Assembly: GCF_020740795.1 (NCBI RefSeq)
Contig: NC_067285.1
Coordinates: 115,321,008-115,385,007, forward strand
Direction: 5' to 3'
DNA length: 64,000 nucleotides
Source of the DNA: Apus apus
Taxonomy: Eukaryota; Chordata; Aves; Apodiformes; Apodidae
The notes below the pieces were generated by a model, which searched no databases, was not told the origin of the DNA, and saw nothing but the letters and a program-made list of their open reading frames with translations. How positions within the stretch are numbered: the first letter of the stretch is position 1; each line of letters opens with the position of its first letter. Positions 1 to 64,000 of this stretch are shown in pieces. Position numbers and translations under genes: made by a program.

Positions 1-3000
1 CCAGATCCTCGGCGGCCCCGAGCCCGCGGGCGGCGGCGGGGGAGCGGCCCGGGCGGCGGGGGAGCCTGACTACGGGCTGTACGGCGGCGCCTACGGCCCC
101 CCCGCCTGCTCGCTCGGCTCCTACAACCTTAACATGAGCATGAACGTGAGCGTCAACGTGACCCCCGCGCCCGCCGCACCGCCCGCAGGGGTCATCCGCG
201 TCCCGGCGCACCGGCCCGCGCCCGCCGCCCCGTCCGCCGCCCCGCCACCGGTCCCCGGGCTCTCGGGACTCACCTTTCCCTGGATGGAAACAACGCGCCG
301 CATCGCCAAGGATCGACTCTCAGGTGAGCGCTGCGGGACGGCTACCGACGGCTACTGGCGGCTACCGACGGCTCCAAAAGCTCCGGTGGCTCTGGCGGCC
401 GCGGGGACCGGCCGGGGTGGGCCGGTTCCGCAGCGCGGGGTACTCGCCCGCCTTCTTCCCTCCCTGCTCCGCCGACCACCGCCCTGCCCCTGGCCGGGCT
501 CTCGCTGCCGTCGTGGTCCATGGAGAGCGACTCGGGGCTGGCGCCGCCATCGGTGGCTTCACCGCGGCCCCGCGTCGACTCCCGGCAGCTGCGGGCGGGG
601 GTCGGGCCGGGGTTTGGCTCTGAGCGGTACCTGAGCGGTCCCGCCGTGCTCCGGCCTCGGGCTCTGTGCCATGTCCGCTCCTTTCCCTGGGCTCGGGGGA
701 CACGGGGTGCCGGGACCATCCTCCTCACAGGGAGGCTGCCGGGGCTGCTGGGTGGGGGCTCAGTCGGGAGTGGGCTGCAGGGACCCACCGTGGGGCAAAA
801 CCTGCCCATGTGCGGGGCTGGGCGTGGGAGCAGGTGGCCGTGTGCCGTGGGAATGGGAGCAGGTGGTGGGGGTGGTCGTGGGCTCCAAATGTTGGGGGCT
901 GGCTGTTGGGCCTGGCCATGGGGAAACTGGAGACAGGACTTGGAGAACCCCATGTGTGGGGATGGGCATAGGGCATGGGGTGTGAGACCACGGGAGAGGC
1001 TGGTCTGGTGTGTGTTGGGTGCGGGGCAGGTGTCGGGGAGGCGGTGAGGGGTCCTGGTGCTGCCAGCAGGGCCAGGGGCTGGAGCACCCAGTGCTGGGGA
1101 GAGGGTTCTGCATGCTGCACCCCAGAGGAGCAGGTGTGGGGTGCTGTGGTGGGGATGGGGGCAGGGAGTGGGTGCTGGGGGGCCCCGGCCAGGCTGGGCT
1201 GGGCTCATCTGGCTCCTTCCCAAGATGGCGGTGCTGCCACGTCCGCAGCGCGGCTCCATGTGGGGACGAGGCCGGGGCCGTGTGGGGCCTGGGGCCAAGC
1301 GGTGGCCACGGGGGCACTGGGGCCATGTGGGGCGGGAGGCTGGGGGCCACGGGGGCTCAGCCTGGGCACCAGCTGAGCCGGGTTCTCCTCCCAGCCCACC
1401 CCGCCATTGTGGCGGTGACGAAGCACGGTCCCCACGCAGGGGTGGCGGGTGACGTCCCCGTCTCCTGCCTGGCGCCAGGGGTGGGTGAACGGGGCGGGCC
1501 CTCCCCAGCACGGGGTCTCCCAGCCGCAGCCATCACTCAGCGCCACCAGCCCTGGGGTGGGCTGTGGGGCCCTCGGCATCTGTTCCTGGCGAGGGGCCGC
1601 CCCGCGCGGGGAGGGGGCGCGGGGGCCTCTGTCCCCTCCGACTGCGCGGCTCCACCTGCATCAACTGCGCCCGCCCCCGCCGGCGGGCAGCCTGGCCCCC
1701 TGCCTGCACCACCGCCTGGGTGCTGGTGGAGGGAGGGTCTGCTGGGGGCTGCCTGCCCCTGGGGGGCTGCCCTGCATCCCTGCGGTGCGGGGTGCCGGGG
1801 CCCCATGGTGGCCCCATGGGCCCGGCCATCTGCAGCCCTGCCCATGCGGTGCTGGCACCAGCGAGGCCCACGGTGCCGTGGCTGCTGGAGCGGGAGGGAG
1901 CGCGAGGTGGGTGCTGTGCCCTGCCAAGCTCTCACCTTCCCCCACACAGCTTCGCTGCCCCGACGCTCCCTGGGCTCTGGCTGTGTCCGGGGCCAGGCTG
2001 CCGCACGCCAGCCTCGCCGTGCAGGGACAGCCCCTTCCCCAGCCTCAGGCACCCGGCAGCTGGCGGTGGCCATTCCGGATGCTGCCAGAACACTGCGGGA
2101 GGCACCGGCCACCTCCTGATGGCTTCTGGGGTCCTGTCCCTTCCTGGGCAGGGCTTATGGAGGCTCCCCTGGGGCTGTGGCAGGGCTCAGCTGAGGGCAA
2201 GGGTGGGCTAGTGCTGCTGGGGGCCTTGCCTGCCCCACATCCACCCTGGGCCAGGCCTGCCCAGCTGCCCCTCTGGCCCCAGTCCCCATCACCATCCTGG
2301 GGGAGTGTTGGAGCCATGGGGTGGGGATGGGCCCTCCCGTTGCATCTGGAGCTGTCCCCCGTGTCCTTGGGCTGTGGGAGCGAGTGGGGACACGTGGGGT
2401 CTCCTCCTCCCTGCCAGGCAGGACTGGCAGCCCCCTGTGGAGCTCTCCATCCACATGGCTCCCCTCGGAGCTCCTTGTTTCACATTCCCAAGCCTCCCCT
2501 CTGGGCTCTGTGCTGGGCAGGGTCCTCGGCCCGTGGCCCCCCGAGCCGCCCCTCACCCTGCTCTGCCCACAGCTGCGCTCTCGCCCTTCGCGGCCACCCG
2601 GCGCATCGGGCACCCCTACCAGAACCGCACGCCGCCCAAGCGCAAGAAGCCACGCACGTCCTTCAGCCGGGTGCAGATCTGCGAGCTGGAGAAGCGCTTC
2701 CACCGCCAGAAGTATCTGGCCTCGGCTGAGCGTGCGACCCTGGCCAAGGCCCTCAAGATGACGGATGCCCAGGTCAAGACCTGGTTCCAGAACCGCCGCA
2801 CCAAGTGGAGGTAACAAGGCGGCCCCGGGGCAGCTGACACGGCCCCCCCAGCTCCCACGTGCTGCCCCGCTCCGGCAGCCACTGCTCCCCGTGCCATGGC
2901 TGTCACCCCTGGGGGAGGCTGGGCTGGGGTGGGACAAGGTGCTTGTCCCTGCTGTGTGCCCTGTGCCCAGATGGGTGAGGTGCTGAAGGAGGGGTGGGCT

Positions 3001-3611
3001 ATTGGGCAGAGACTGTGGGGCACTGCTGGATTACGCTCAGCAGTGCTGGGGAAGGGATGAGCTGCGGGGCAGGGGCTGTGGGGCACTGCAGCACTGGTGC
3101 ACAGCAGTGGTGGCAGCTGCATGGACTAAAGGACGTTGCTGGGGGAGGGACAGGCTGTGAGCAGAGGCTTTGCCCATGCAGGGGAGGTTGGAACTGGATG
3201 ATCTTTAAGGTCCCTTCCTTCCCAAACCCATTTGAGTCCCATCCCAATCCATTCTATTATTCTGTGGGGAGTCACCAGGCTGGCACAGGGCGGTGCCAAG
3301 GCGGGGACAGGCTGTGGGCAGGTCTGTGTGGCACTGCCAGGCTGGAGGCAGCAGTGCCAGGCCGGGCCGTGCTGGACACGGTGTGTGGTGGCAGGAGGCA
3401 GACGGCGGAGGAGCGCGAGGCCGAGCGGCAGCAGGCCAACCGGCTGATGCTGCACCTGCAGCAAGAGGCCTTCCAGAAGAGCCTGAGCCAGCCACTGCCC
3501 CAGGACCCGCTCTGCATGCACAACTCCTCCCTCTACGCTCTGCAGAACCTCCAGCCCTGGGCTGAGGACAACAAGGTGACGTCGGTCTCAGGGGTGGCCT
3601 CTGTGGTGTGA
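1..3611 (+). CDS. TLX2: TLX2 homeobox transcription factor, 5'-partial, three exons visible
   Basis: Exons are <1-323, 2573-2810 and 3395-3611, with GT-AG junctions (phase 1, then phase 2) and a TGA stop at 3609-3611. The frame is open from base 2 and begins with QILGGPEP, just after where TLX proteins carry their N-terminal repressor (eh1-like) motif, so the start codon lies outside the window. The TLX-specific stretches [10 protein letters not shown] and LTFPWM are in exon 1. Exon 2 carries most of a homeodomain ending [14 protein letters not shown]; threonine at homeodomain position 47, before WFQN, is the TLX signature where most classes have isoleucine or valine. Exon 3 ends [20 protein letters not shown], which resembles TLX2 rather than TLX1 or TLX3. 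TLX2 is a nuclear DNA-binding factor of neural-crest-derived enteric and autonomic neurons. DQX1 nearby, its neighbour in mammals, supports the assignment. Confidence 0.93.
324..2572 (+). other. TLX2 intron 1, GC-rich, no recognised element
   Basis: This 2.25-kb intron is G-rich on the top strand and full of short GGGG-containing repeats. Several long open frames cross it on both strands, but they have only Gly/Pro/Ala/Arg/Trp-rich composition and no domain. I see no second gene or recognisable transposon here. Confidence 0.6.
3165..3275 (+). mobile_element. CR1 LINE 3'-end fragment in TLX2 intron 2
   Basis: The text GGAACTGGATGATCTTTAAG followed by GTCCCTTCC and a diverged CCATTCTATTATTCTGT tail matches the conserved 3' end of bird CR1 retroposons. 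The copy is 5'-truncated, as most CR1 copies are, and is in the sense orientation of TLX2. Confidence 0.85.
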
Positions 3612-5047: not shown

Positions 5048-6241
5048 ATGAGCGCGGCCGAGGGCTGGCCCCGGTGCCGGTGGGGCGGGGGGGTCGGCGG
5101 CGAGGCGGTGCTCCGTGCCCGTGCCGAGGCCGCCGGGTACCGGAGGCTGCTGCGCGCCCGCGCTGCCGAGGTGGAAGCGCTGCGCGGGGCCGTGGGAGCC
5201 CTGCACCGGCAGCTGGAGGGGCTGCGGGACCGGCGGAGCGGGGAGGTCGCCAAGTACCAGGTGCGGGGGGTGATGGGGGCTAGGGGGAGTGTGGGGGACG
5301 TGCGGGAGTCCCAGGGGATTTAGTTTGGAAACGGGGGCTGGATGCTTGGGATGCGGGGGCGGGGCGGGGAGAGACCAGGCACCGGGCGGGGGGTGCGGGG
5401 CCTGGAAGGCCGGAGGGCTGGGGGGGGCACGGGCTGAGAGGGTCGGGATGGACTGGAGGGACACGACAGGGACTGGGGGAGTCAGGATGGGTCTGGGGAA
5501 GGGGATGAAGATCAGGATGGGGGGAGGACCGGGGGATGAGGGAAGACGGGGGCCGGGATCGAGCCAGGGGCTGGGGGGGCTTCAGGATGGGGCTGGGGAA
5601 GGCGGATCGTGATGGGGTTGGGGGAGAGGGGACTGGAGGGTGAGGGAGGACGGGGGTTGGGGATGGGGCTGGGGAGCGGGGTTCAGGGGCTACGGGGGTC
5701 CATACTGCGCGGGGGTCCGGATGGCACTGGAGGGGTGGTTTAAGGTAGGGCTGGGAAGGGGGATCTGTGAGGGGCGGGTATCGGGTCAGGGACCGGCTAT
5801 CCTCTCAGGAAGAGGGTTATTTCGGGGATCTGTGCAGGTTGGGGGGGATCCGGCCCGGGGTCCTTGTGGGCGGGGGTCAGTCGTGGGTCTGTGCGGCGCC
5901 ATAGCCGGGCCGGGGGCCGGGGGTCCGTGGGCGGCGGGGGTTAGCCCAGGGCTCGAGGCGGGGGTCCCGGGCGCTGCTGACGGCCCAGTGCAGGAGCGGG
6001 TGGCGGAGCTGGAGCGGGAGATCGGCGCGGCGGAGGCGGAGATGTGCCGGTGCCTGCGGGAGTACCCGGCGCTGCTGCGGCTGCGGATGGCGCTGGAGGC
6101 GGAGATCGCCGCGTACCGGTACGCGGGTGGGGGGGGGGGGGCGGGCGGGCTGGGGGTCGTGGGGCTCAGCCCGGGTTTGTCTCTTGCAGGGAGATGCTGG
6201 AGGGTGAAGAGCTGCGCCTGGGCTGCCTGGCCCCGCCGTGA
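5048..6241 (+). CDS. Short neurofilament/alpha-internexin-like intermediate filament protein (rod end only)
   Basis: Exons are 5048-5260, 5994-6118 and 6190-6241 (129 residues; GT-AG junctions, phases 0 and 2; TGA at 6239-6241). The product has heptad-rich sequence typical of coil 2B ([18 protein letters not shown]), then [19 protein letters not shown] and the rod-end motif [15 protein letters not shown], a clear form of the helix termination signature shared by all intermediate filaments. The spelling EM-R-LREY before the motif favours types III/IV (vimentin, neurofilament, internexin). The 125-bp middle exon and the intron splitting the AAYR arginine codon fit my recollection of neurofilament-type genes. 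Head, coil 1 and coil 2A are missing and no tail follows the rod, so it cannot be a normal filament subunit; it may be a relic, a dominant regulator, or a victim of misassembly. The start is the first ATG in the coil frame (CCGGGATGA); an in-frame ATG at 4931 is possible. Confidence 0.65.
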
Positions 6242-47074: not shown

Positions 47075-47215
47075 ATTCCCGGAGCCGAACCGTGCCGAAC
47101 CGTTCCAAGCCGTGTCATTCCGAGCCGTGCCGTGCCGTTCGAACCGTTTTTTGCCGTTCCGCGCCGTGCCGAGCCGAGCCGTGCCGTGCCGCACTGTGTG
47201 CCGTGCCGGGGGAGG
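47075..47215. repeat. CCGTG/CCGAG short tandem repeat
   Basis: Built from variants of GCCGT, GCCGA and ACCGT. Rich in CG dinucleotides, unlike the other local repeats. Confidence 0.75.
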
Positions 47216-47371
47216 TTTGGGATGTGGAGAGGCAGCTCAGCCCTTTGGTTGAGCCTTGTCGGGCTAAGGCAGCAGTTTGCCATCCTGCTCTTTCTTCTTG
47301 TCAATGGAGACCTCACTGGCAATAAAGCCAGCGGACAGGACAGGAGATTTATCCCTGGCACAATCCCCAGT

Positions 47372-47602
47372 ACAGACTGGATCTTGGGAACAATTCCTTC
47401 CTGGAAAGGGTTGTCAGGCCCTGGCCCAGGCTGCCCAGGGCAGGGGGGGAGTCCCCATCCCTGGAGGGGTTTCAAAGCCATTTAGATGTTGTGCTGAGGG
47501 ACATAGGGCGGGGTGGCCTTGGCAGGGCTGGGGGAACAGTTGGACTCGATAGTCTCAAAGGTCTTTTCCAACCAGAACCATTCTATGATTCGATGACTCA
47601 GT
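47372..47602 (+). mobile_element. CR1 3'-end fragment in DOCK intron 28
   Basis: Closely similar to the copy at 24815: GACTGGATCTTGGGAACAAT, AGGGTTGTCAGGCCCTGGCC, GTCCCCATCCCTGGAGGGGT, then GTCTTTTCCAACCAGAACC and ATTCTATGATTCGATGA. Confidence 0.92.
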
Positions 47603-49026
47603 GACCCTGTGCTCTCTGGTGGACGAGGCTGCCCTGGTCTGGGAGCATCCCAGGTACTGGGATTGCTCCTGCTGAGGTGCTGCTCCCTGCCTGGTGACTC
47701 CTTCTTATATCCCAAGGGACTGGGAAGGTGCAGGGGCCCCCCCTTCAGCCCCCAGCTCAGTCTGCCCTCCCCTGCCCACTCAGCTGGCACAGCCCCAGCA
47801 CATCCACCCCATAGTGACATTTCCTGACAGTGGCTCTGCTGTCCTGGGGTGGCTTTACTGGCTGTGGCAATGGCAGGTGCAGTCCCCAATGTGCTGCTGG
47901 CTGTGCCAGGGGGCTGTGCTGGGGGCTGTGCCGGGGGCTGTGCCAGGGGGCTGTGCTGGGTTGTCCCAGCACAGTCCCAGTGCCAGGTGTGCATGGTGCT
48001 GTGTTGTTGTCATCTCGCTTTTAGCCTTCATTCCTGGGCTATGTGAGTCCGTGCCAGGCGATGGGGAGCAGAAAGAGCCATGGGCCCTGCTGGGCTGTGG
48101 CAGCAGCTCAGAGGGACACTGGGGGCTGGAGTGCAGCCCCCACATGGTGCAGGAGAAGGGGAGCGATCCTTCGGCTGCACTTTGACAACCAGCACCTGCT
48201 CCCCTGGAGCAAGCTGGCTTTGGGATATGGTGGGGTGGGCACCAGCACTTGGGGGTCCTTGTCCCACCACTCCACGGTGGCAGAGGAGGGTCATAGCACA
48301 CACTGGCACTGGGTGACTGTGGGGAGCAGCCCCTGCACCGTGCCCAGTGAAAGCCCATTGCCCGCTGCTGCCGGCAACTCTGACGTGGGACCCTCATCTG
48401 AATTGCTCCTCGTGGGCAGCCTTGCAGAGGCTGGAATATTTGAGTTGCTAATTTCTTTCTCCCTGGAATTAGGCAGTGTATCCTGCAGCCCAGAAGGCCC
48501 TGCCAGACACCGCAGCCCCCAGCAGCCCCACTCCTGCAGCACCCCAGGTACAGACAGGCTATGCGGGGCTCAGCTCCCTGGCCTCGCACAGAGGAGAGTG
48601 CTGGAAGGAGAGCCATGTCCTCTGGGACCCCCACCCAGCCCCCCTTCTCACCTGGGAGGTTACAGGAACACATCTCTCTCCCATCCAGGGTCTGACTGAG
48701 ACTATTTTCTACCATCTCTGACCAGAAGAAATCCTTGGTGTTCCTGGTTAACCAGCAGCCAGGGGAATGGGTGACCAGCTCAGGCTGTGGGGTGCAGGGA
48801 TGGGCACTGGTCTCAGGCTGGGAGCACCAGGGCTACCAGCACCTCCTGGGGAGCCCCAAGGCAGAGGAGGGTCTGACCCTGCCCTCACTGAGGGGTTGTG
48901 GGTGCCTGGGGCTCAGCAAGCCCTGCAGCCCCTGTGGGGGAACAGCCACTGGCCCCTCCTCCTCCTCACCCAGAACAGAAGTGCACAGGTGGGAGAGGAT
49001 GTAACAAAAATAGCGTCTCCATAGAA

Positions 49027-49032
49027 TTTATT
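49027..49032 (-). other. Polyadenylation signal AATAAA of the INSYN2-like gene
   Basis: TTTATT on the top strand reads AATAAA on the minus strand, 196 bases beyond the INSYN2-like stop codon, giving a short 3' UTR. Confidence 0.65.
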
Positions 49033-49227
49033 GAATTCTCATTAAATACAGCCACTGTTCCCCTCTCCGTACGTACACGGGGGGCTTTGACAGATTAAAC
49101 CGAACGGTTAAAAATATAAAAGCTGGTGCTACCCAAACCCTACCATCAGAGGGAGGGAGAGGAGGAAGGAGACGTGGTCAGTGCTGGGATGGTGACCCCG
49201 TGCTCCTGGCCTGCTGGGCACTGCTGG

Positions 49228-52200
49228 TCACAGGAACCAGAAGCATTTGCGCCGGGATTTCTTTGTGTCCAGCTTCCCAGGCAGCTTTGTCACCGGCGAC
49301 AGCTCCTGCCGGGGTGGCAGGGCAGCCTCTGCCATGGGGGAGCTCGGGGCTGTGTCACCCTCGATGTGGCTCAGCACCCGCTGGAAGCGACCCTCCTGCT
49401 GCCGGAAATCGTGCTCCACGCTGCGGGCGAGGGGACAAAGGGGACAGTGTTACAGAGCATCTCACACTGTGGCCCCCCCACCTGCCACAGTACCCACTGC
49501 CACCCCTGTGCCCTGCCATAAGAACCCCTCCCAGGGAGCTCAGCCCCCCGTGTATCCCTAGGGCATGTCCCCAGGGACCTGGGCCCTGCTGTGCTCCCCA
49601 GGCTGCTGCATAGGGTGGCACAGTGGCAGGGGACCAGCCTGGCATTGGTGGCCATTGTCCTGTGTCTGGAGGGGACAGCCAAGCCTGGGGAAGGGCAGGG
49701 CTGGGGCAGGAGCCTGTGTGTGACTGTGAGAGCGATTCTCTGGCAGCTTTCTCCAGGGCTCCCGGTATTTCCTGGTGGGCAGAATTCCTGGGGTCACCCT
49801 TTGCCTCTGTGAGGGGACATCCAGCTGGGATGCCCTTCAGGCAGTGCCTGCCCACCCCCTCGCCTGAAGGGGCTGTAGTGGGGGGTGGGGGCTGGACCCA
49901 TCCCAAAGAGCCGTCCTGCCCCGGGCAGCACATGCTGCAGCAGGGCACCTGGCACCACATGGCTAAACCTTCTGGGACCTCTCCTTCCAGACACACGAAT
50001 AAACACTCACTGACCTCCTGGCAGGGGGTATTTTGGGATGGGTCAGCAATGGGGTGGCTTTCTGGGGGTGCTGCTCTGTCCCCCCAGGGCTGCAGGGTCC
50101 CTCCCAGACCAGCCTTTACCAGTGACCCACCTGGGGCTGGGAGACTGGCTGGGGACCAGTGCTGGGGCAGGGGAGTGAGCCCAGGGTCTGTGGGACCCGG
50201 TTCACTGAGTAGCCTGGAGAGGGGCTGCATGTCCCTGGGGCCAGAGCCCCTTGTCCTGCCACCAGCACTGTGCCTGGATCTGATGGGCTGAGTGCAGCTG
50301 CAGCATCAGGAGGGGGCTGCACTGCTGCCCGTCATTCCACGGGGGATGCAGGGAATTTGGGCTCCCTGGGGCTGGGTAGCTGAGGGGGGCTGTGTCCCCC
50401 ACGACAGCTGGCAGGATTCCTGCCCCACCAGAGGCCTGCAGCACGGGGCAGCCATGTGCTGTGCTGCCTCCTGGCATGGAAAGTGCTCTGCTCTCCTCAC
50501 ACCAGCTACATCCCATCGGATCAGTGAGGTGCTGCCATGTGTGCCTGGGACCACGCACGTGGCACACACGGGGATCACCCTGTGAGACCCATGCAGCATG
50601 CTAACACCTCCTGTCACCTCACCCTGTGAGGACACTGCTTGTTCCCAGCTATTTCTAGCAAAAGGAGTGAGCTGTGGCAGCCCCTCAGCAGCACGGGGAC
50701 CCTGACTCCCCAGCCCTGAAGCAGAGGAAGGGTTTGGGGTGCACAGCTGGAGCATCCCAGGAGGGAGACGGGCAGGTCTGCTCTCTGCTGCAGGCGATCC
50801 TTAAAGGCCAGCACCCTGGCTCCCTGCACCCCAGCTCCTGGCACCCCACACATGCAGCACTGTCCCTGCTCCCCGTGTCCCACCAGTCTCTTCTCATCAC
50901 GAGGATGGCAGTGAAGCCCAGAGGGAGACCCCAGCAGGAGCCTGACACTTACAGGGAGCCACCTCCCCCAGATGTCACATCTCTCCCCTCCGCAGAGCCG
51001 CCTGCAGACACGCTCGTCAGAGCCAATTAGCACTGAAGTCCCCCACGAGCTCCGGCGGAGGAGTTCGTGGTGTAAATCAGCGGCAAACAGGGGAGAAGGC
51101 CGCGGAGGAAAGCGCTTCCACACCCCGACCCAAAGCTGATGCCAGGGAAGCAGAGCCGAGGCCCTGTGGTCCTGGACCCCAGAGAGGGGCAGGCACGCCC
51201 TGCGCGACCGGCAGCCCCCCCGCAGCATCTGAGCGACGCTGGCACCGGGACAACGAGCTGCAGCCTGGGCTCGGAGTGAGCCAGGCAGCCCCGCCCCCAG
51301 CCACTAACAAGGCTTTCCCGATATTATTGCTTTTACAGACCGTAACTGCTCAGCCATGGAACTGGAGCAGCCCCCTCCCCACAGCAGCCAGCCGGCTGTC
51401 CTTCCCGACAGTCACCCCACCTGTCCCTGGGAGCCACAGCTGCTCTCCGCAGAGGCAAAGGGACCTGAGTCAGGCCAAATGACACCAGGACCCTGCTCTG
51501 GCCTTGGGACACACGGCAGGAGCCGGCAGCAGAGCAGCGAGGTGCCTGCACCCGCTGCCCCGGCAGCGCTCCGGGGAAGAGCTGGCCCCGCTGTGCCAGA
51601 ACCTCTGCACGGCGGAGCCCCGGCTGAGGGATCCTGGCAGGGGAGGGGTCGCCCAGCAAAGAGTCTGCGGAGCAGAAGAGCAGGGGCCCTGCCGGGAACC
51701 CGGCTGGCTCTTACCTGTAGATGATGCAGGCGCAGTCCCGGCAGGTCCCGCAGTTGGCGATGTCCTGCCCCGTCCGGTACGAGTGTCGCCTGCCACAGAG
51801 CACAGGTGCAGTGAGCCTGGGGACCGGCCCCTCTGCACGGCCTCTCCCGCCGCCCCCAGCCCCTCCCCTGCATCTCCAGTTCATGCTCCAGCAGCTAGGA
51901 GATGGAACCCAGCTCCTCTCCTCCCTGGGATCCAGCTCTTCTTTTCCCTGGGATCCCAGCTCCTGGATCCCAGCTCCCCTCCCCCCTGGGATCCCAGCTC
52001 CTCTCCTCCATGGAGATGCTGCTTGATGCCAGGCCAAGTGTGGTTGGTGCCTCTCAGGTCAGCACATTTCTCAGGAGGTTGCAAACAGATGGGCACAGCA
52101 GAAGCCCTGAATCTTCCACACCTCCTTCCAGCTCTGTCCCGGAGTGGCACCTGATGCCCACAACCAACCCAGGCCACCATCCATCTCCCCATACATGGTG

Positions 52201-55200
52201 CCACAGCAGGACCCTGGGCAGTGCAAGGTCTGTGTGGGGGCACGTGTGGCACAGCAGTGCCCTGGCAGATGGAGACACTTCAGGTTAGTTACCAGCCTAC
52301 GCCAAGCTCAGAGTTTGTATCTTTTTGACACTTTGGCACCAGAGAAGCCTCAGCCTCCACAGAAGGGGCATGGGACTCACATGAAGCCGATGAGCCCGAG
52401 CTGAGCCCCAAGGCAGTCCTGCTCCCTGACCTCCACACAGGGGGCCTGTGCCCCCGGTGTTTCTGCTGCTGATGTTGGACACCAACCCTAGTGCATCCCA
52501 GGCTCCCTGGGTGCTTGCTGGGGTGCTGTCCCCAGTGTCCCTGCTGGTGGCACATCCCAGCTCCCACTGCCCTGCATGTGCAGGGTGTCCACTGGCTGCA
52601 GTGTCCTGCTGTCCCAGAGGCCAGGCAGCCGTGGGGTGACAGGGACCACCAGTGGCCCTCTGGCACAGCCACAGTGCCAGCTCGGTGCTCCCATGAGCTC
52701 GGCAGCCTGCACGTGCTGCCACCACCACCTCCCTGGGGAAATGGTCCCCTGATGTCTCCCCTTGCTCAGCAGCCTCCAGATTCTCTGGACAGAGCTCGGG
52801 TGCTTTTGGCTTTGCAGCCCTGCTGAGCCCCTGGGGTGCTGGCTCTGCCAGGGCTGTGCCCGCAGACCCTGGCGCCCCAACACTGCTGGTGGGTGCTCCC
52901 TGGTGCTGCCCCAGGTCTGGAGCTGTAGGAAAAGGTCTCAATTAAGTACTCTGGGTGACCCTTGTGGACTGTCCCCATGCCCCCATTGCCCCTCTCAGCC
53001 AGGGCAGGTTGCGGCCCTGGGGGACAGCTAAGCCCCCCCGTCCCACATAGCAGTCACAGTTTCCTCTTTAAATCTGCCTCTTAATGCTTGACCTTGATCA
53101 TGATTGTTCTCAGCCCTCGAAAAGTAGGTCTTTTAATGCACCAAATTATATATTACAATTGGGATTATACTCAGCACATAAATTAGACCATGATTCCATA
53201 TAGATATATATGGTATGTATAGATGTGTGTGTGTGGGGGTATCTAATGCTATATAAATTGCACCTCTCTACCAGGATGGGAGCTAATCCTGAGATGGGTG
53301 TTGGATGTGGGATGGTGCTGGTGGTAGATGCCTGGACCCTGCGATGTCACATTATAGGGTGAGAAGTGCTGGGGCTGGTGGCACCGCTCTAGTGGCTCTG
53401 CTTGGTGGCACTGCACACCTGCAGGACACTGGCCCATGGCAAATGAGGCCACGCTGTTCCGCAGCATCAGGACACCAGGATGTTTTTTTGTATGTGATTT
53501 CCCATTCCTTATGTCTCTGGGCATTTGTTTGCTCATTTAACTGCACCAGTGTACAGAGCCGAGATCTTAATTAAGCTGCCCGCGGTGAAGCTAAATCAGC
53601 TTCCCGAGCAGACAAACCTAATTCCGGCGGCAGGAGCAAACCTGCTCTCCCAACAGGCACTGCAGCCACAGGGCTTGGCATTACCACAGCGTCACCACAG
53701 CACAGCCAGGGGTTTATGGACGCCTCAAAAAGCAGGAGCCAGGCAGGGGTCACTCCCTGACCTCTGTCCCTCAAGCAGCTGCAGGGACCCTAGGGGCAGT
53801 AGACCCTTGTGTGACCCTGACAGGCGGGAGGCAGGGGGCTGTGCTGGGGCTGTGGGGCAAGGGGCATGGGGTTGGGGCTGAGCAGTGCTGGGGCAGCCAT
53901 GGCACACACAAAGCAGAGCAGGGATGTGCCCCTGTGCAGCTGGGACAAACAGTTGTCCTGAGCATAGGAAGGGGCCTGTGCCAGCCCATGTCCCAGCACT
54001 GCCTAAGCTCCGGGTGGGAACAGACACACATGGGCTGTGCCCACAGCCAGGCAGCCTGTGCCAGGGGAGCACGGTGCTGCACACCCCACCTAAGCACCTG
54101 CTGGGGACTGCAGCTTCTGCTGTTGCCTCTGTGGGATCCACACCCCCTTTGGCACCCCTGGCTGGAAGGAGGTACTTAGCAGTCATTTGCTTTGGATAAA
54201 ACAATTAACCACATGCACAGGCAGCAGGGCCAGGACCACCAGGAGCTGCCCATCTGGCAGATCCAGACCTCATTCTGTGTGCCACCCTGCCACCCCAACA
54301 CTGCCTGCCACATCAGATGTACCAATATTGCCACTGAGCTCAGTGTCCTGGGCAGGAGAGAGGTATGTGGGCATGCCTGTGGGCACAGACCAGCCAGCCA
54401 TTGGGGCACCAGCTAACAGGGTTAACTTGGCTAACACCAAGGCTGGAATTGAGAGCAGGGTGAGACAGGGAGACTTCTCCCTGGGTGATCCACCCTGGTT
54501 CGTCAAGGTGCTCAGAGGAAAACACACTGGGGAGGTGGCAGCACCAAATCTCTGGCAGGACACCCCTGTCCTCCATCTACAACCCCCCGGCACATCAGCC
54601 CCCCCCCATTTCCCCTCCATCCCGGCCTGCTCACCCATCCCGCTGGGCCTCCTTCTTCTCCAGGTCCTGGATGACGTCCAGCAGCACCCGGATGGTTTGT
54701 TGGCTGGTCTCCAGCACCCCTTCCAGGGACTGCAGCTGGGACTGCAGGTCCCCCCGCTGCCCGGGCCCCCTGTGGCCCTCTCCCTGAGATGTCCGGGCAT
54801 CCTCGTCCCCTGCTGGTGGTCCTAATGGCCCCTTGGCCACCACCACCAGCTGCAGAAGGTCCTGGACGTGGCGCAGTGTCTCCGACTGCTCGACGGTGAG
54901 GCAGGGCTGCCCGTGCTGGGGGATCTCCTGTGCCTGCCCGGCTGGCTGCGTCCCCACGCCGGGGCCCTGTGGGGCCGGGGGCTGCAGCATTTTGGGTCCC
55001 TCTGGTCCTGCCTGGCCATGCCCCGGCTGGGTGGTGGGTAGCCGGCTGCAGATGGCACGGGGGTCCAGGTGGCCGAGCGCAGCTGGTGTCTTCTCTGGCG
55101 CAGCGGCAGAGCCGTGCCAGCCCGGCGCTGGTGGGATGGGGGCTGGCGAGGTGCAGCAGGGCCCCCCCCAGGCCGTGCGGCAGAGCTGGTGCTGGGGTGG

Positions 55201-56109
55201 TGGGGGGTCCCGCGGGGGGTTGCCCTGAGCTGGCTGGCGGAGGCCGTGGCTGTCGGTGTGCGGGGGGTGCGGCGAGGGCTGGGCCGGCGGGCGCCCGTGG
55301 GGCAGGATCCGCTCCGAGCCGCTCCGGCCGAGCCCCCGCGGCTGGGATGGCGGCCGGGGCTGCCCGCAGGGCACGGAGGCCGGGCGCGGGGGGGTCCCAC
55401 GGCTGCCCCCGCGGTTCCCACGGAGCCGGGCGCAGGCGAGGGGCAGCGGGCAGGGCTCGGGAGTGCAGTGCACAGCGGGGCACCCGGCCGTGCCCGGATA
55501 AGGGGGACAGGGATCCCTGGGCGGTGGCGGCGGCACATGGCACACCGCGGCGTGCTGGGCGAGGGCTGCGGGACGCTCGTGTGCGGGGAGGCTGCCGGGC
55601 ACCCGCGGGGGCAGCGCCGGGCTGGAGCCGGGGGGCACGGCCACCCCCGGGCACCGGGTGCTCCCTGCAGCGGCGGGCAGCACCGCATCCCCGGCCACAT
55701 CGCACACGCTCTTGCTGCGGGTCTGGGCGGCCGAGAAGGGCTTCTGGAGGCTGGGGGAGGTCTGGATGGCGGTGCTCATGCACGCCTTCCTGGGCATGGG
55801 CAGCGTCAGCGAGCCCGGCTGGGCCTGGGGCCAGCTCCGCCGCGAGGCACAGAGAGCCACCGGCTCAGGGGCGTCCCTGGGGGGCGGCGAGGCACGAGGG
55901 GTGTTGGGGCCGGGGGCGGCCGCGGGCCCCGCGCCGCCCTCCACCAGGTCCTTGAAGCGGACCTGCTGCGTGCGGTTGCGCCGGCGCTTGAGGCGGCTCT
56001 CGATGTCGGGCGAGTCGCGGTTGAGCAGCACTGAGCGCACCGTCATGGCTTTCTCCTGGCTGCCCTCGCCGGCGGGGGCCGGGCCGGGAAGGGGCTCCCG
56101 GCTGACCAT
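49228..56109 (-). CDS. INSYN2 (FAM196)-like inhibitory synaptic factor, antisense inside the DOCK gene
   Basis: Coding exons on the minus strand are 56109-54635, 51789-51715 and 49420-49228 (580 residues; phases 2 and 2). The start MVSREPL resembles the MVSK start of INSYN2A. A basic motif RRRNRTQQVRFKDLVE (residues 43-58) matches its QVRFKD region, and IQTSPSLQK follows near 110. The middle is Pro/Ser-rich and not conserved. Near the end of exon 1 is a predicted coiled coil (LQSQLQSLEGVLETSQQTIR, VLLDVIQDLEKKEAQ). Exon 2 encodes the family's best-conserved block SYRTGQDIANCGTCRDCACI with its cysteine cluster; exon 3 gives VEHDFRQQEGRFQRVL and ends CFWFL, like the terminal WFL of INSYN2A. INSYN2A is a postsynaptic gephyrin-associated protein at inhibitory synapses. 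INSYN2A and INSYN2B lie antisense within DOCK1 and DOCK2, so position and sequence agree. It is probably a third paralogue rather than either of those. Confidence 0.88.
51895..52015. repeat. Degenerate GGGATCCCAGCTCCTCTCC repeat in the INSYN2-like intron
   Basis: Four to five imperfect copies of a unit around GGATCCCAGCTCCTCTCCTC lie about 100 bases upstream (in gene sense) of exon 2. It is pyrimidine-rich on the top strand only. Confidence 0.7.
53080..53250. promoter_or_regulatory. AT-rich island in INSYN2-like intron 1
   Basis: Contains CTTTTAATGCACCAAATTAT, ATTACAATTGGGATTATACT and then a TATA/GTGT simple repeat (53195-53235). The left half is not a simple repeat and may be conserved; the right half is ordinary microsatellite. 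Confidence 0.3.
53555..53645. promoter_or_regulatory. Possible conserved element in INSYN2-like intron 1
   Basis: AGATCTTAATTAAGCTGCCC, GAAGCTAAATCAGCTTCCCG and GACAAACCTAATTCCGGC are unusually word-like for the area, with an imperfect inverted repeat (GAAGCTAAATCAGCTTC). Only composition and palindromy support this. Confidence 0.3.
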
Positions 56110-58136
56110 GGCTCAGGGTCCGGTGGGGCGTGGGGGGCCAAGCACGGGGGGCCGGAGCCCTGGGCTGCGCCCGTCCCCGGAGCTGCCCGGGGAAGCGGGT
56201 GGCCTCATCCCGTGCCGCCGCAGAGAGGTGACTCTGGGCGAGAGGTGGGTGGGGGTCCGCCGGGCATGCTGCCCCCCGCCAGGTCCTACAGCCCCCTGCC
56301 CGCTGCCGTGCCTCCCCGCTGCTGCCGGCTGCCCATGGTCCCACCGCCGGCCGCCCTGGCTCAGTGCCGCCCACCGCAGGGTGCCCGGGGTGCCGGGTGC
56401 TGGCCGTCCCTGCTCATGGCTCCTGGGGTCCTGGACCTGTGGGAACAGAGAGAGGTGGGTCAGCCCTGGCCCCACAGCCCCCCGAGGACGGCGGCGTCCC
56501 CCACGCTGCCCCAGCCTCTGCGTGCCCCCTTCCCAGCCCCGTCATCACCAAACGCAAAGAGACAAGCTTTGATCTCTGGCGCTGCCTCTTCAGCACAAAG
56601 GGAGGAGGAAAAAAAGAAACCCCTTTAGCATAAACACGTTACAAGTTCACAGCTCAAATCAAGCAGAAGCAGTTGTTAAAAATAGCTCTGCCTCACTGGG
56701 GCCAAGGCCTCGTGCTCGGGAGGGCAGGTATGGGGGGGCTGCTGTGCCAGGGCAAGGGGCAGAGCTGGGCTGGGCATGGGGGCTCCTGCCTGGGATGTGG
56801 GGCATCACTGGACAAAGAGCACCAGCTCTTCGTGGGGCTGAACGAGGTGTGGGGCAACCAAGCCATTTTGGGCATGGCCAGAGTGGGCATAGGACCCATC
56901 TTACATGGACCATGGCCACACAGGGCACAAGGGATCTGTCATGCGTGGGGCACAGACAGGCTGGGCACAGGGTCCCATCCTGCCCAAGGCACCCACCCGA
57001 GCTGCGACAGGGCTGGCTGGGGTGCAGGCAGGGGATGACAAGCTCCATGGGCAGGGGCAAGACTGGCCTGAGGACATTGAGCCGCTCTGGACATGTGAGA
57101 ACCAGCTGAGAGGGAGAACAAGTGTTGTGGTTGCGATGGCAGCTGGGATGAGATGGGCGGGAGGTCCCAGCAAGAGCTGTTTCTCCAGCCCTCATCCCCG
57201 GCTCTGCTGCAGGGCTGCAGCTCCGGGTGGCTGCAATGGGGCATCTCCCTGGGCCATCGTGTTTCCCCAGGCAGCCCACAGCTCTCCCTGCTCACCCTCA
57301 CTGTCTGCAGCTCTCTCCTGCCCGGCCTCATGCGCAGGCATGGGGCACAGCTCCTGCTTACAGGGCCACTGCCAGGACCTGGCCAGGACCAAGGTAACAG
57401 CTTGTGCCTGGGAATACATCCCTGACACCACCAGGGCTTTCCAAGCGGCATGGGGACAGGACCCAGGGGTGGCCTTGCTCCTAAGCAGGGGCTCTTGCAT
57501 AAGAGGTATCAAACCCAGCTTGTCCTCTGTCCCTGCTGTCCTTATTGCACAGCTATGCAGGTCTCCCTCTCCCCACACAGCCCAGACAAACCTCCCTCCT
57601 CAGCCTTGTCCCGGCCATACCCCCACCAGCACCGAGACCCCGTGCCTGCCTCGCTCTGCCTCTGCCCACGCTGGTCACGGGCTGTGGCCCCGGCCCGTCG
57701 CAGGCACACGATGCCGTGGGGCACAGGGCGCACACCAGGAGCCCTCCCGGGACCCCCCCCCGCGATGCCAAATTGGCGAACGGCTCATTTCGGGAAGCAG
57801 CACCAGGGACAGGGTGGGAGAAACGCGGACGCCAGCCCCGGCGCTGCTTCGCCTGGCGGTTCCCTCGCCTTTTTGAGGTCCCTGCGGCGCAGGCGAGGAG
57901 CGGAGCGGGCTTCCCGTGGCACTGAGTCACCCCCTCGCACCGTGTCATGTCCCACCTCCCACAGGATGGTCCCCTTCCGCACCACAGCCCACCGCCCCCC
58001 CGGTGCCCCCACACCGTCTTTGGCACACCGTGACAACAGCCTTGCTTGCTCCGCAGCCTCGTGTCCTCGCTGCGGATGGACACACGGCCGCGGCCGCCCC
58101 CCCGCCCTCCTGCCTTCCTCCCACTGTAAAGAAGTG

Positions 58137-58147
58137 GCTGACTCAGC
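58137..58147. promoter_or_regulatory. Maf/AP-1-type palindrome
   Basis: GCTGACTCAGC is the core of a T-MARE (Maf recognition element of TRE type), inside the CpG-rich zone upstream of the INSYN2-like gene. A second AP-1-like TGAGTCA lies at about 57923. Sequence match only. Confidence 0.3.
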
Positions 58148-59413
58148 CGCGCAGCCCGGAGCCGCCCGGAGCCGGGAAGGAGCAAACTTCCCGAGCGCTG
58201 AGCGTGCCGGTGCCCGGTGCCTCCCCAGCACGGGCCCAGTGCAGCCCCCCCCCGGCGCTCGTCGGGATGCTGCTCCACGCGTCGCCCAGCCACCCGGCGC
58301 TTCCCTTCCCTTGGAGCCGTGCCCAGACACCGGGAGATGTTTGTGAGGCAGGAGGCGGCAGAGGGATAGGGCACCTCGTTAGTATGGGCAGCAACAGGCA
58401 GAGGAGGGAGCTGGCACATCCTGCCCCGCGCCCACGGTCACGGCAGCCGGGGGCGAGCCCGGGAGGAGCAGCCCCACCCGTGTCTGTCAGAGGGTGCCTG
58501 GTCCTGGCCATGAGGTGCCGGCACCGGCACAGGACAGGGCAGAGCCCACTGCGACAGCGAGGGGCTGTGGGGTAAACCTGTGCCCAAGGCCCTGCTCCAG
58601 CCACAGCAGCTCCGTGCCGTGTGGTCACTTCTCCCTGCCCACACTGCAGTGACAGCCGCTGCCCAGAGCTCGGTGTCCCCTGCCCAGGTCCCACTCGGTA
58701 TCCCTAGCTGTGCCTGTGCCAAGGCAAGCAAAGTGCTGAGCAGCGTGGGGGCTCAGCTGGCACATCTCCACGCTGGAGTGGGGTCCTGAGCACTGCTGGG
58801 GACCACACAGCTGCTGAGCCCTCAGCCCCTGTCCCTGGGTCCACACACTCATCCACATCCCACCCCTGCACACGCACCACGGCTCCAGCAGGCTGCCCCC
58901 CCAACCTTCCTGTGCCCCACCAGCTCCTCCTGGGCACAGGGAGTGGCATGAGTAGGAACACCACCTGTGAATGCTGCCCCGTCCCAGCACAAGGCACACG
59001 TGAGTCTGGCCAGCCTCACAGTGCTGGGGGCAGTGCTGAGAGATGAGGAGCCCTCAGGGGTCCTGAACCTGCAGCAGCCCCTGCCAGACCCACTGTGGGC
59101 CCAAGGCTGTGGTAGCTCCTCTGCTGGGAGACAGTGGGGTCAGGAGAGAGGCAGACAGGATGGGACGTTTCCTAACTACCGTGTGGTGGCTGATGCTTGT
59201 CCTCAGGTGCCTTATGCTGGTGGCTCTCAGGAGATCACTGCCCGTAAGGGATCCCTGGGGCACGGCAGTGGAGGGAGCCTGGGTGTGTGGGATGGGGCAG
59301 TGGCAGAGCCCAGGCGTGGTGGGGGCTGGGAGGACGTGGGGGGGGCTGGCACCGGCCACCAACCCAAGTCTGGCCAGGAGCAGTGGCAGGAGAACAGGCT
59401 GGGAGCTTGACTG

Positions 59414-59605
59414 ATGACAGCTGAAGGATGGCAGCATGTACCAGCCACGCCAGTCAGCACAGGACCACGGAGAACACGGTTCAGCAACCAATTTGCTGTC
59501 TGTTTTGATGAGCTTCCAAGTTGGGTCGATGAAGGTAAAAGCCTCGGTGGAGCAGACTTGGATTTCTGTGAGGCATTTGACATTTTGACGAAGAAAGCAG
59601 AGTAA
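59414..59605 (+). mobile_element. CR1 reverse-transcriptase remnant
   Basis: A 63-codon open frame contains PSWVDEGKSLGGADLDFCEA and FDILTKKAE, recognisably the CR1 ORF2 segment that normally reads like VDEGKA-D--YLDFSKAFDTV around RT motif A. It is the only internal (not 3'-end) CR1 coding piece in the window and is clearly broken on both sides. Confidence 0.7.
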
Positions 59606-61747
59606 CACCAAAGCAACGTGGCACACATTAAACGGATTAAAAACTGACTAACCAGCATGTCTCAAGACATAATCATCCAGTGATCATCGCCAATTAGCCA
59701 CGGTCCTGCGGAGGGGCCCCGCGTGGGCACTGCCTGTCACTGACCTCAGAGACAAAACTCAGCACCGAGAAAACGTGTGGGTTATACGAAGGCTGAGAGA
59801 AGGGCAAGGAAGGAAGAAGACAAACACAGAGACATGCGAGGAGCACGGAGCAGAGGCTGTGCAGGAGCGTCCCTGCTGCAGAGGAGCCCCAGGGTCCTCT
59901 CTGGCCAAGCAACAAAAAATTGGGGGTCAGGGAAGAGACTTCTTATTGAGGCCAGCCAGCGCTGGAGCAACTTGGAAGGGATTTGCATGGTGGTGGATCC
60001 TGTGTCTTGGCAATTTGTTAAGGTCTGAGTGTTTTTCTCCTCCAGTTCATACAGGAATTATGAGCGCATGAGTAAGGTGAGACAGCAGGTCACATCAGAT
60101 GATGTACAGCTAAAACCAGACACTGCTGGAATGCAACAGACAACAGGAGAGTTTCAGCCATGGGTTCTCTGGCTCAGTGGGATACTAAGCACCATTGGGA
60201 ATAATGTCTCCTCTGCTGAATGAGCCCAGGAACCACTTCCCATGACCCAGACACCACTGAACTTCAGGTGCTGACTCCCATCCACTCCTCTGTGTGTCCT
60301 CACTCCCCACAAACATCAAATACTTCTCAGGATGATGAGGACTGGTTGGCAGAGCTGGGGCTATCAATCATGCATCAGCGTAGCTGCCATCCCCAGCCTG
60401 GAGTCCTTTGAATCCACAAATCCTCAGCACCACTTTGGATGCTGGGATCCAAAACCTGGTCCTGCACCACCAGCCTGGGCTGGGCTGGTGCCTGTCAGCT
60501 CCTTCCTGCAGCCTGTAAAGGGCTTCTTAGTCTCCTCTCAGAGACCCAACGGCCCATGACTGGTTCATCCTTCTTTGCCCAGTACTGACAGATGATGAAT
60601 TTTGTGAGAGAGGCACTAAATCTTCCAGGTTTTTATCTCGAGACTTTTCTCTCCTGGGTTGCAGAGTTGACATCAGAGGAACAGAGCCCTGCTTCACACT
60701 GTCCTGTCCAGAAACATACCTATGTCCACCAAAAGCCCTGCAGAGTGGAGGGAAAGCCTCCAGCTCCTGCCTCCTCCTCCTGTGCAGGGACAGCAAGACC
60801 TGGCTCAGCTCTTCCTCCTGACTCAAGGACTTCGGTGTCCTGTGGGAGACACCAGCCTAGGACTGATAAGCCTGGGAGACCCCAGCTAGGGCCATTGAAC
60901 AGCAGGACTGCAGGCACCGACAGAGGGTCCAGCTGCCCTCCGCAGTCATCAACAATCCTGCCCATCCCTGGCCAGTTTTGGCCCTTTCTCCACCCATCCT
61001 CCTCCTCGCCCTCCTGGCACTGTCTGTGGCAGAGGGAAAACCAGAGCAGACACATAAATCTTCTCCTCAAGACGCAGGAAACCAGGAGATTAGATTTATG
61101 AGAAAGGAAGTCATATTCTTCTGGAACTGCAGAAGAGAACAGCTAATTACCCAGCTCCACTCACTGGGTACAACAGCTTCTCCCGGGACAAAGCCTTTAC
61201 TTTTCCTGATCCACTGGAAAGAGGTGCTGAGAGGGGTGGCACCAGAGGATGAAGCATTTGGTCTCAGCTGACAGCCAGGCAGGAGCCAGGTTCACAACAC
61301 ATCACTCGGCAGAAGAGCTTAATCCTGCTTTGGCTCCAAGAGCACTTGACACGTTTGTAGTTGGATCAGAGCATCCGTGGGACCTGAGGATGGAGGAGTA
61401 AGAGCCTCTCTCCAGGCAGCTAGCAAACCCAAAATCCGCTTCCTCATTCAGGAAGCTCCACCACGAAGCCAGCTCAAGCCCTACCCTCACAGCTCTCTTG
61501 GAGGCTCTTCCAGAGCCCAGCTGGCTTGGAGGCTCACAGACCTGATTTCCTGCAGGCTCTTAAATATGGCCACTTTATATCTGACTGTGCTTGAGCCAAT
61601 ATCATGTTTCCGCTTGAGCAGCTCTTCTCCCTCTCAGCATCCAGCCTCCCTGCGTTCACAGAGAAGACACAGGTCCCTTCTCCAGTCACACTCGGCCCTG
61701 CCCACCAGGGCTAGTGTCCCCTGAGCCAGCTCCCCGCCCTCCCATGG

Positions 61748-61812
61748 TGAGAGAATCATAGAATCGTTCTGGTTGGAAAAGACCTTTCAGATCATCAAGT
61801 CCAACCAGCAAC
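61748..61812 (-). mobile_element. CR1 3' terminus, 65 bases
   Basis: Top strand reads AGAATCATAGAATCGTTCTG, GTTGGAAAAGACCTTTCAGA and TCATCAAGTCCAACC: the last bases of a CR1 copy in reverse orientation, extremely truncated. Confidence 0.88.
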
Positions 61813-63754
61813 TGAACTCCACTGAGCCTGGTGCTAACCCATGCCCCATGGTCCTGGCAGCCTCCCTCCACACCCACAGCGCTGGGATTCCTCCCTCCCG
61901 GAGCCTTCAAGGCAAAGTCTTACCCTCTGCTCCAGCAGTGGAGCAGGCAGGGCTGCAGCCCTGAGCCGGGCTGTGCCTCGTGCTCTGCAGCCAGCCCCAC
62001 GTGGGGCCCCGGGGCAGTGGGGGCACACGGGGCCTCCCCCATGGAGCCAGGGCCTGGGGCAAGCGGCAGCTCGCGCCAGCCAAGGGAGCTGCACTCATCT
62101 CTATTTAGGTCACTGGCTGAAGTGCTCTGGAGGAAAATTAGTCACTCTCCCAGCCACTGGGCCCGGGAGAAGGCTCTTGTTGCCTGGTTGGAGAAGGGAG
62201 CCCCCCAACACCTGCCTTCTGCAGTGCCAGCACCCCTGGGCACCCTGCGGGCACCTCTCCAAGCTGCCTGCACTCCCAGCTGCCCTCCTCATGGCTACTG
62301 CCCCATGGATGGGATCCCACCAGTTAGGGAAGCAGCATCCTCCTCCCAGCACGCAGCCCTGTGCATTGCTCCTCTCCCTTTCAACTGCAGATGAGCTGGT
62401 GCTGTCAGATGGAGACTTTACGTGGTCAGGAGGCACAGTGAAGTACAAAGCCTTCCCACAAAGCCTGCAGAAGCCTGCAGAAACCAAATTATTCCTCTGT
62501 CTCCCATGGATGCTAATACGGCTGTCATGACAGTTGTGTCTCTGTTCTACCCATTTGCTTTCCCACCCCTCTTTGCCAGGCAGAGGAGCACGGATATCAC
62601 CAGTTTAAATGACATGAAGGGCTAGGATGACCTACCCAGGGGAGCATGGGCAGCCCACGGCAGACATCCTGTATGGAGCAGGATGAGATCCCGGGTAGTT
62701 TGTTTCACATCCCCAGGCTTCCCTCCTCCATAGAGGAGCAGGCAAGTGTCCCTGGCGCAGGCTGCAGCACCTTCTGTGGTGGTACAGAGAGGCCACTGCA
62801 GGGGGAGGAAAACACCTGGCTTGGCTGCATCCTTCCCACTGAACGTGGCATGGGCAATAGCATGTTCCTCCAAGTCCTGGAGACACTGTGTGGTGCTACA
62901 TGGATGTGGGAAAACACCTGACATGGAGATCCAGCCAGGAGAGCAGAAGAGCCCAGGCAGTGCCCAGCATGGAAGCACCACAGGCTCTGCCAGTGGCTCC
63001 AGCACGGGCTGTTCCCACAGTGATAACAGGACAAGGGAAGTAGGACACAGCCCAGAGACTTTCGGGCACAGGAGATGCAGCTCATCACAAGACTTCCTGC
63101 AGCTCCAGGCTTCCCTGGGGAGGGACATCTCACCTCTTGGAGAAGAGTGCCCAGGCACCCATTGGGAGCCAAACTGTGCCGGAGAGCAGAGCAGCCAGCC
63201 AGGCTGGGGAGCCCTGACAGACGGGGACTCCGTGTGCTCCTCCACATGCCAGGAATCTTGTTAGAAAGCCACAAGCTGTCCACAAAGCACATTTCTGGAA
63301 AAGGCTGGAAAGGCTCTGCTGCACAGCACAGAGGCAGCACCGCCCGGGTTGACCCTGTGAGACTCCGGGCAGCAGCTCGGCCCTGGGCAGGGGCAGTGCC
63401 CCCCCAGCGGCTCCCTCACCCCCGGGCAGCCCCCTCCCCAGGGCGCTCGCCCAGCCGCGCTCCTGGCAGCCGGCACAGGAGCCTCTGCAGCCGCAGCCTC
63501 CCAGCACAGAGAGGGAGAATGTCTTTTCAGAATACAAATTCCTGCCTCTAAGTGCATTTCCAATCCAGCAGCCACCCCCACCTCCCCCCCCCCTTTATCT
63601 TGAGGTGCTTTAGACAACGCTGGCTACCAGGGGAATTTCGGAATTAGCAAGTGTCTTTCCTTGCCGTGTGCCTCGGTTTCCCCACCCACCAAACAGCCGG
63701 GATGATCTGGACCAACAAGCAAGAGCAACCCTGTCCAAAAGCACCAGTCAGGTC

Positions 63755-63860
63755 TGGAATGGTATTGTTACTACGGATGGGAATAGAGCCACTAATTATT
63801 TGTGGCTCCTGGATGCTACCATACAAATAAACAATTATAATAATTATAATTCATAAAGAA
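63755..63860. other. AT-rich stretch near the right window edge
   Basis: CACTAATTATTTGTGGCTCC is followed by ATACAAATAAACAATTATAA and TAATTATAATTC. The second half is low-complexity AT; the first includes a homeodomain-like core. Confidence 0.35.
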
Positions 63861-64000
63861 GACAACCTCAGCCTAAAGGAGCTTCTGCGTTTAAATGCCC
63901 TCCACATCTCTGAGCACGCTGGACAGACTGCACGCTTCCCACAGAAGCCAGAAGACATGCCAGGAAAGGACAGCAGGTGCCAGCCAAAGCCCAGCTCTGC

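Follow-up and report, generated by a model that had tools for sequence, protein, structure and literature searches.

The human complement of the gene families considered here comprises DOCK1, DOCK2 and DOCK5, INSYN2A and INSYN2B, and a single IL12B. The LBX2/TLX2 region has been described as one of four paralogons, ancestrally associated with NKX3.2 and paired with the TLX3 region; in other linked families, too, TLX2 pairs with TLX3, and TLX1 with the fourth paralogon (Wotton 2008, PMC2446394). In the portions of that study drawn on here, the surroundings of human TLX2 are given as PCGF1, TLX2, DQX1, AUP1, an HTRA gene and LOXL3; DOCK2 is named only at the TLX3 locus, no DOCK, INSYN2, IL12B or neurofilament gene is placed at TLX2, and the chicken sequence is incomplete. 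Here we analyse a stretch of 64,000 nucleotides of the Apus apus genome (1.10 Gb), referred to as the window (C5:115321008-115385007), which lies about 123 kb from the end of contig C5 (115.5 Mb). Coordinates are window positions unless a contig is given, and “bird” DOCK1, DOCK2, DOCK5 and so forth denote the genes of this genome. Beside TLX2 the window holds a fourth DOCK-A gene, an INSYN2-like gene nested in one of its introns, an IL12B-like (p40-like) gene and a neurofilament-family fragment. Very probably, it represents the TLX2 copy of a four-fold NK-homeobox/DOCK paralogon and hence the fourth outcome of the genome duplications in early vertebrates. The literature examined, which included PMC12162339, PMC10165394 and PMC8805411, showed no report of a fourth DOCK-A gene, nor of a third INSYN2, another bird p40 besides IL12B or a TLX2-linked neurofilament gene, automatic database annotation having been outside the search.

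A fourth DOCK-A gene and the INSYN2-like gene within it

Four DOCK-A loci were found in the genome, at C5:2.61-2.84 Mb, C14:15.31-15.44 Mb, C27:1.35-1.39 Mb and in the window. C10 and C1 hold two further, weak loci of DOCK3/4 type. The first three DOCK-A loci are named DOCK1, DOCK2 and DOCK5 because of their identity to the human sequences (DOCK1 0.946 over 645 residues; DOCK2 0.887 and DOCK5 0.843, PDB, 300 residues). The human DOCK1 sequence was not derived from a database; those of human DOCK2 and DOCK5 were taken from PDB. The window gene belongs to DOCK-A by its DHR2 domain, which matches DOCK2 with 733 bits, DOCK5 with 679 and DOCK9/10 with about 50 (the DHR2 of human DOCK1 was not among the matches). 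With DOCK1, DOCK2 and DOCK5 it shares an SH3-like start, DHR1, DHR2, a probable proline-rich tail and an exon-by-exon alignment; it differs from them as a separate lineage, 66-71% identical to each. Over the 645 of 1651 columns with all four bird genes (matches below 24 bits and overlapping matches excluded), its identity is 0.712 to DOCK1, 0.704 to DOCK2 and 0.659 to DOCK5, and the identities among these three are 0.713, 0.735 and 0.681; the window gene is roughly as distant from each of them as they are from one another. For the bird DOCK3/4-like genes the identities are 0.48 (113 residues) and 0.52 (149 residues).

Nine tree topologies were compared with the approximately unbiased (AU) test. 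Trees that joined the window gene directly to bird DOCK1, DOCK2 or DOCK5 as its sister were rejected (p 4e-52, 2e-121 and 4e-60, respectively), such recent-duplicate trees being 60-110 log units behind, as was a partnership with the DOCK1 or the DOCK5 lineage (p 6e-4 and 1e-4). Without human DOCK1, where the sister placements covered were those with bird DOCK2 and DOCK5 only, the corresponding values were 9e-6 and 1e-103 (61 and 111 units behind), and 1e-4 and 5e-4 for partnership with the DOCK1 or DOCK5 lineage. All accepted topologies, four of the nine (five without human DOCK1), hold the unrooted split of window+DOCK2 versus DOCK1+DOCK5, which is also favoured by the 2:2 columns (19:9:6). 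This split agrees with the pairing of TLX2 and TLX3 in the consulted parts of Wotton 2008 (PMC2446394). Two other identities were considered for the gene and discarded. It is not a DOCK5 moved beside TLX2, as DOCK5 lies separately on C27 with two neurofilament-type genes, and it is not the genome's own DOCK1 or DOCK2, in view of the separate loci and the tree tests.

The window DOCK retains 351 of the 397 residues that are invariant in the other three genes (0.884; others 0.889-0.936). As DHR1 and DHR2 are open and conserved nearly as in the paralogs, its product should be a Rac exchange factor, as is expected from the family. For avian biology the block would mean one more, probable Rac exchange factor and perhaps a second subunit of the IL-12 family.

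The nested gene is assigned to INSYN2 (FAM196) by a PF15265 match of 76.3 bits (cut-off 27) and by its antisense position in a DOCK-A intron. Across the genome PF15265 gave 11 matches, 10 of them above the cut-off and all 10 in three loci. When DOCK exons 27 and 28 were located with a 66-residue query, INSYN2A, INSYN2B and the window INSYN2 were all found between these two exons, on the strand opposite to the host gene (three of the four DOCK-A loci). The PF15265 genome search gave no INSYN2 match on C27, where the DOCK5 intron 27-28 measures about 0.95 kb. The same intron and orientation, three times over, imply that the DOCK/INSYN2 pair was copied as a unit. Like INSYN2A and INSYN2B, the window gene has three coding exons; it is a third gene, with overall identities of 36% and 27% to the two. 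Its exons and splice ends appear intact, and in line with the function of the family its product should be an inhibitory-synapse scaffold.

Four NK-homeobox paralogons in one genome

The linkage of these genes was followed across the genome. TLX1 lies at C5:13.85 Mb and TLX3 at C14:16.14 Mb (own-genome TLX search), IL12B at C14:11.35 Mb, and neurofilament-type genes at C5:13.20 Mb, C27:1.464 and 1.476 Mb and C17:1.78 Mb. Homeodomains of NKX3-2, MSX1, HMX1 and NKX1-1 type were located at C5:100.39, 101.94, 104.72/104.73 and 108.00 Mb (0.86-1.00 identity), 7-15 Mb from TLX2. At the other copies (homeodomains 0.90-0.97), an NKX3-1-type gene is found on C27, MSX2- and NKX2-5-type genes on C14, and NKX2-3-, HMX2/3- and NKX1-2-type genes on C5:3.9-15.1 Mb. 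It should be noted that these names rest on human homeodomain sequences not derived from a database. Each of the four NK-homeobox paralogons has a DOCK-A gene, which completes the four-fold set within one genome. Separately linked copies of similar divergence, as expected for ohnologs, number four for DOCK, three for INSYN2 and TLX, and two for p40.

These data suggest an ancestral block in which an NK/TLX homeobox cluster would have been linked to three kinds of gene: one of neurofilament type, one for a p40-type cytokine, and a DOCK-A gene carrying INSYN2 antisense in an intron. The two early vertebrate genome duplications would have given four copies of it: C5:2.6-15 Mb, with TLX1, an INA-type gene and DOCK1/INSYN2A; C14, with TLX3, IL12B and DOCK2/INSYN2B; C27, with NKX3-1, two NEF-type genes and DOCK5, where no INSYN2 was found; and the end of C5, with NKX3-2, MSX1, an HMX1-type gene, NKX1-1, TLX2, the neurofilament fragment, the p40-like gene, the fourth DOCK and its INSYN2. 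Since two NK-homeobox paralogons lie some 85 Mb apart on C5 (2.6-15 and 100-115.5 Mb), this contig presumably joins them by a chromosome fusion. The locus shares with the LBX2/TLX2 paralogon, as described in the consulted parts of Wotton 2008 (PMC2446394), PCGF1, TLX2, DQX1, AUP1, HTRA and LOXL3, the linkage to an NKX3.2-type gene in birds and the pairing with TLX3.

The genome further provides an internal test of the origin of the TLX2 region, which falls on the NKX3-2 side and not on the 8p21/DOCK5 side. SLC4A5 and MTHFD2 lie on human 2p13. The part used here of PMC6135963, a study of GnRH, places both genes in chicken and gar together with GnRH1, KCTD9 and DOCK5; human 2p13 is therefore probably a mosaic of two paralogons.

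The IL12B-like gene and the neurofilament-family fragment

The IL12B-like gene has six exons with consensus splice ends, and domains 1 and 2 read through. Its kinship with p40 follows from similarity: the top 13 of 31 PDB sequences matched are IL-12 beta (best 1.3e-16, with a query that was partly mistyped), and PF10420 reaches 25.2 bits against a cut-off of 25 (12.1 for a single open reading frame, ORF). In common with IL12B (p40) and teleost p40a, p40b and p40c it has an Ig domain, FN3-type domains and the CPFAEE cysteine motif in domain 2 (8475-8666, minus strand). In human p40 the cysteine of this motif pairs with p35. It is kept here; conversely, the two other domain-2 cysteines of IL12B are gone and domain 3 is out of frame. 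To the genome's own IL12B the window gene is 30%, 33% and 50% identical over three short pieces. The p40 sequence that we take to be that of mouse is 56%, 43% and 57% identical to bird IL12B, over pieces somewhat different in extent. Fish p40c of trout is 24% identical to p40b, according to the part of PMC4929537 consulted.

The frame through all three p40 domains is interrupted in the assembly between exons 4 and 5, which differ in frame: the lengths 70+222+109+182 leave one base over, whereas an open reading of exons 5 and 6 has to begin at the first base of each. The likeliest explanation is a slip at the seven-C run 8370-8376, with a changed splice site as the alternative. As neither exon 5 nor exon 6 contains a stop when read in its own frame, we attribute the break to a recent event or an assembly error; because of it we use the label “IL12B-like”. 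Should the assembly be at fault, a secreted beta subunit is the expected product of the gene.

The neurofilament-family fragment has the intron position and the coil-2 end of NEFL, NEFM and INA; in contrast to them, no head or coil 1 and little of the rod were found. Its PF00038 matches are confined to profile positions 210-262 and 261-304 (of 313), those of the reading frames upstream of the fragment to 210-262. Residues 1-171 of a NEFL template with head and coil 1 (coil 2 from 217), not derived from a database, gave no match near the gene. Still, the fragment is split at query residue 49-53, as are the INA/NEF-type genes on C5, C27 and C17, which identifies the type IV intron; intermediate-filament genes on C7, C31 and C3, presumably of type III, match across this position. 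The genes on C27 and C5 have exon-1 ORFs of 509, 598 and 631 codons and the C17 gene one of 182; that of the fragment counts 153. The fragment is probably a dead relic.

The C17 gene (C17:1780025-1781030), perhaps NEFH, lies outside the four paralogons.

Alternative origins of the block

Several observations weigh against the window as the fourth duplication product. The IL12B-like and INSYN2 genes have too few relatives for rooted trees, and the DOCK trees, of bird and human sequences only, date the split just as older than the bird-mammal divergence. In maximum-likelihood trees DOCK2 branches off before window+(DOCK1,DOCK5), on weak support (79/62 and 83/74), and this is the best tree also when human DOCK1 is omitted. 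The Shimodaira-Hasegawa (SH) test, alone among the tests, keeps window+DOCK1 and window+DOCK5 (p 0.073-0.077 in both sets). The pairing with DOCK2 is at odds with the C2/DHR1 exons, which match human DOCK1 best (94 bits; DOCK5 70, DOCK2 67), and with the whole N-terminal piece (DOCK5 252 vs. DOCK2 114). Unlike the DOCK split, the INSYN2-like protein is closer to INSYN2A (0.359) than to INSYN2B (0.273), which in this comparison without an outgroup may reflect only a faster change of INSYN2B. The interrupted IL12B-like frame and the incomplete head and rod of the neurofilament gene indicate a copy that is partly decayed, and the LBX2 homeodomain was not found within the 80 kb to the left (C5:115241008-115321007), where PCGF1 is in place.

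Among the alternatives, an old duplication independent of the genome duplications survives best, in which the DOCK/INSYN2 pair was copied alone before bony vertebrates and came to lie beside TLX2 by chance. Such an event is compatible with the weakly supported DOCK root and with a date that rests on linkage, the age being bounded below only by the bird-mammal split. We consider it improbable nonetheless, as relatives of TLX, p40, DOCK/INSYN2 and the neurofilament gene all lie on other NK paralogons of the genome, and the DOCK split matches the pairing that Wotton 2008 (PMC2446394), in the parts consulted, gives for linked families. Somewhat less credit is due to the notion of a decaying relic block devoid of any working product: the loss of the neurofilament head and coil 1 and the out-of-frame exon 5 of the IL12B-like gene would fit, but the 47 DOCK exons run through 1651 codons with no stop and most invariant residues in place, and the INSYN2 exons and splice ends look intact. 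Finally, a segmental duplicate of the DOCK2/INSYN2B/IL12B (or DOCK1/INSYN2A) block that arose within the reptile-bird line and moved beside TLX2 is scarcely credible: DOCK2 is indeed the nearest human relative in DHR2 and in the 2:2 columns, IL12B and DOCK2 likewise lie together on C14, and the INSYN2-like protein is closest to INSYN2A, but the sister placements with bird DOCK2 and bird DOCK1 within bird+human (AU p 2e-121 and 4e-52), and with bird DOCK2 without the human DOCK1 sequence (9e-6), are rejected, and the window-DOCK2 divergence equals that between DOCK1 and DOCK2.

The assignment of the window as the fourth paralogon copy is strongly supported for DOCK and INSYN2 and plausible for the p40-like gene; for the neurofilament gene it is true only as a trace. 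What the data establish is the gene content, the intron common to the INSYN2 genes, the similar divergence and the rejection of a recent DOCK duplication. We infer both that the fourth copy dates to the two early vertebrate genome duplications and that its genes were lost from the mammalian TLX2-DQX1-AUP1 interval; we know of no mammal with these genes beside TLX2. A GC-rich chromosome end can evidently hide a gene block of a kind that mammals are not known to have at this position. A wider proposition, to which we give even chances, is that non-mammalian amniotes have kept a working fourth DOCK-A, a third INSYN2 and a second p40, which would be the land-vertebrate equivalent of fish p40c, beside TLX2 since the early vertebrate duplications, and that mammals lost them jointly.

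An earlier note on this DNA had proposed a fourth product of the genome duplications with four genes kept. The old DOCK lineage and the four-fold set with NK homeobox genes in one genome bear out the first part, qualified by the decay of the neurofilament and IL12B-like genes. As to the second, DOCK and the INSYN2-like gene are open, the neurofilament gene is present only as a fragment and the IL12B-like frame is broken. The check for recent bird-specific duplication, run for DOCK, excluded a copy of DOCK1, DOCK2 or DOCK5 (AU test; without human DOCK1, for DOCK2 and DOCK5).

Gene order and features of the window

The order PCGF1-TLX2-DQX1-AUP1-HTRA2-LOXL3 is retained, with four additional genes inserted: the neurofilament-like fragment and the IL12B-like gene between TLX2 and DQX1, and the DOCK-A gene with the nested INSYN2-like gene between DQX1 and AUP1 (Table 1). 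The analysis of the flanks used human templates not derived from a database and covered 80 kb on the left side and 120 kb on the right. All six genes that the earlier note had read in the window (TLX2, the neurofilament-like rod end, the IL12B-like gene, DQX1, the DOCK-A gene and the nested INSYN2-like gene) are present. The block is nevertheless not contained in a single 64-kb stretch, as the catalytic half of DOCK is located beyond the right-hand end of the window and the first exon of TLX2 (HEPISFGIDQIL) straddles the window start, beginning just to the left. The 80-kb left flank contains two stretches of N (200 and 499 bases).

Table 1. Positions of genes and exons in the window, its flanks and the related DOCK loci
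Feature	Position	Strand	Exons, location or basis
PCGF1	-11.4 to -8.5 kb (window coordinates)		human template
TLX2	1..3611	+	homeodomain exon ~2602-2820, last exon ~3390-3611; PF00046 74.2 bits and own-genome TLX search
Neurofilament-family fragment	5049..6241	+	three exons: to ~5261, ~5994-6119, ~6190-6241; coil-2 end and rod termination motif
IL12B-like gene	9845-7477	-	six exons: 9845-9776, 9410-9189, 8925-8817, 8655-8474, 8386-8237, 7638-7477
DQX1	~17601-12398	-	OB_NTP_bind domain 42.9 bits; DEAQ motif and Walker A in ORFs; position
Fourth DOCK-A gene	20413..64000 and beyond	+	ATG exon 20413; exons 1-27 in window, last 46464-46559
Fourth DOCK-A exons 28-47	67085-75949, right of window	+	splice model
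INSYN2-like gene	~56109-49228	-	three coding exons: ~56109-54634, 51789-51715, 49420-49228; in DOCK intron 27-28
AUP1	83.0-91.5 kb (window coordinates)		human template
HTRA2	92.2-98.4 kb (window coordinates)		human template
LOXL3-type exons	101.4-112 kb (window coordinates)		human template
Window DOCK exons 27, 28	C5:115367480-115367593, C5:115388092-115388172		66-residue query
DOCK1 exons 27, 28	C5:2791486-2791608, C5:2715746-2715850		66-residue query
DOCK2 exons 27, 28	C14:15353946-15354044, C14:15392816-15392896		66-residue query
DOCK5 exons 27, 28	C27:1374453-1374551, C27:1373397-1373504		66-residue query

For the fourth DOCK, 47 exon cores were hand-picked from sequence matches and passed to a relaxed splice model, which gave open exons over 20413-75949 with neither a stop nor a forced phase break. 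In this model the ends of exons 3, 7/8 and 19 are slightly wrong, and the donor of exon 13 is GC. Better ends are available: 32679 as the end of exon 19, 23383 as a possible start of exon 8 and, for exon 3, an AG that directly precedes the residues GWYRGY. ORFs at 76.6-77.7 kb are probably the proline-rich tail, as judged by eye. Copies of an interspersed repeat occur at about 24860-24990, 29940-30040 and 47370-47490, with related copies in the DOCK5 stretch; we take them to be, possibly, CR1 ends. The DOCK introns also carry tandem arrays, at 37629-37914 (period 13, 21.8 copies), 34540-34676 (period 22/30) and 36799-36863 (period 19).

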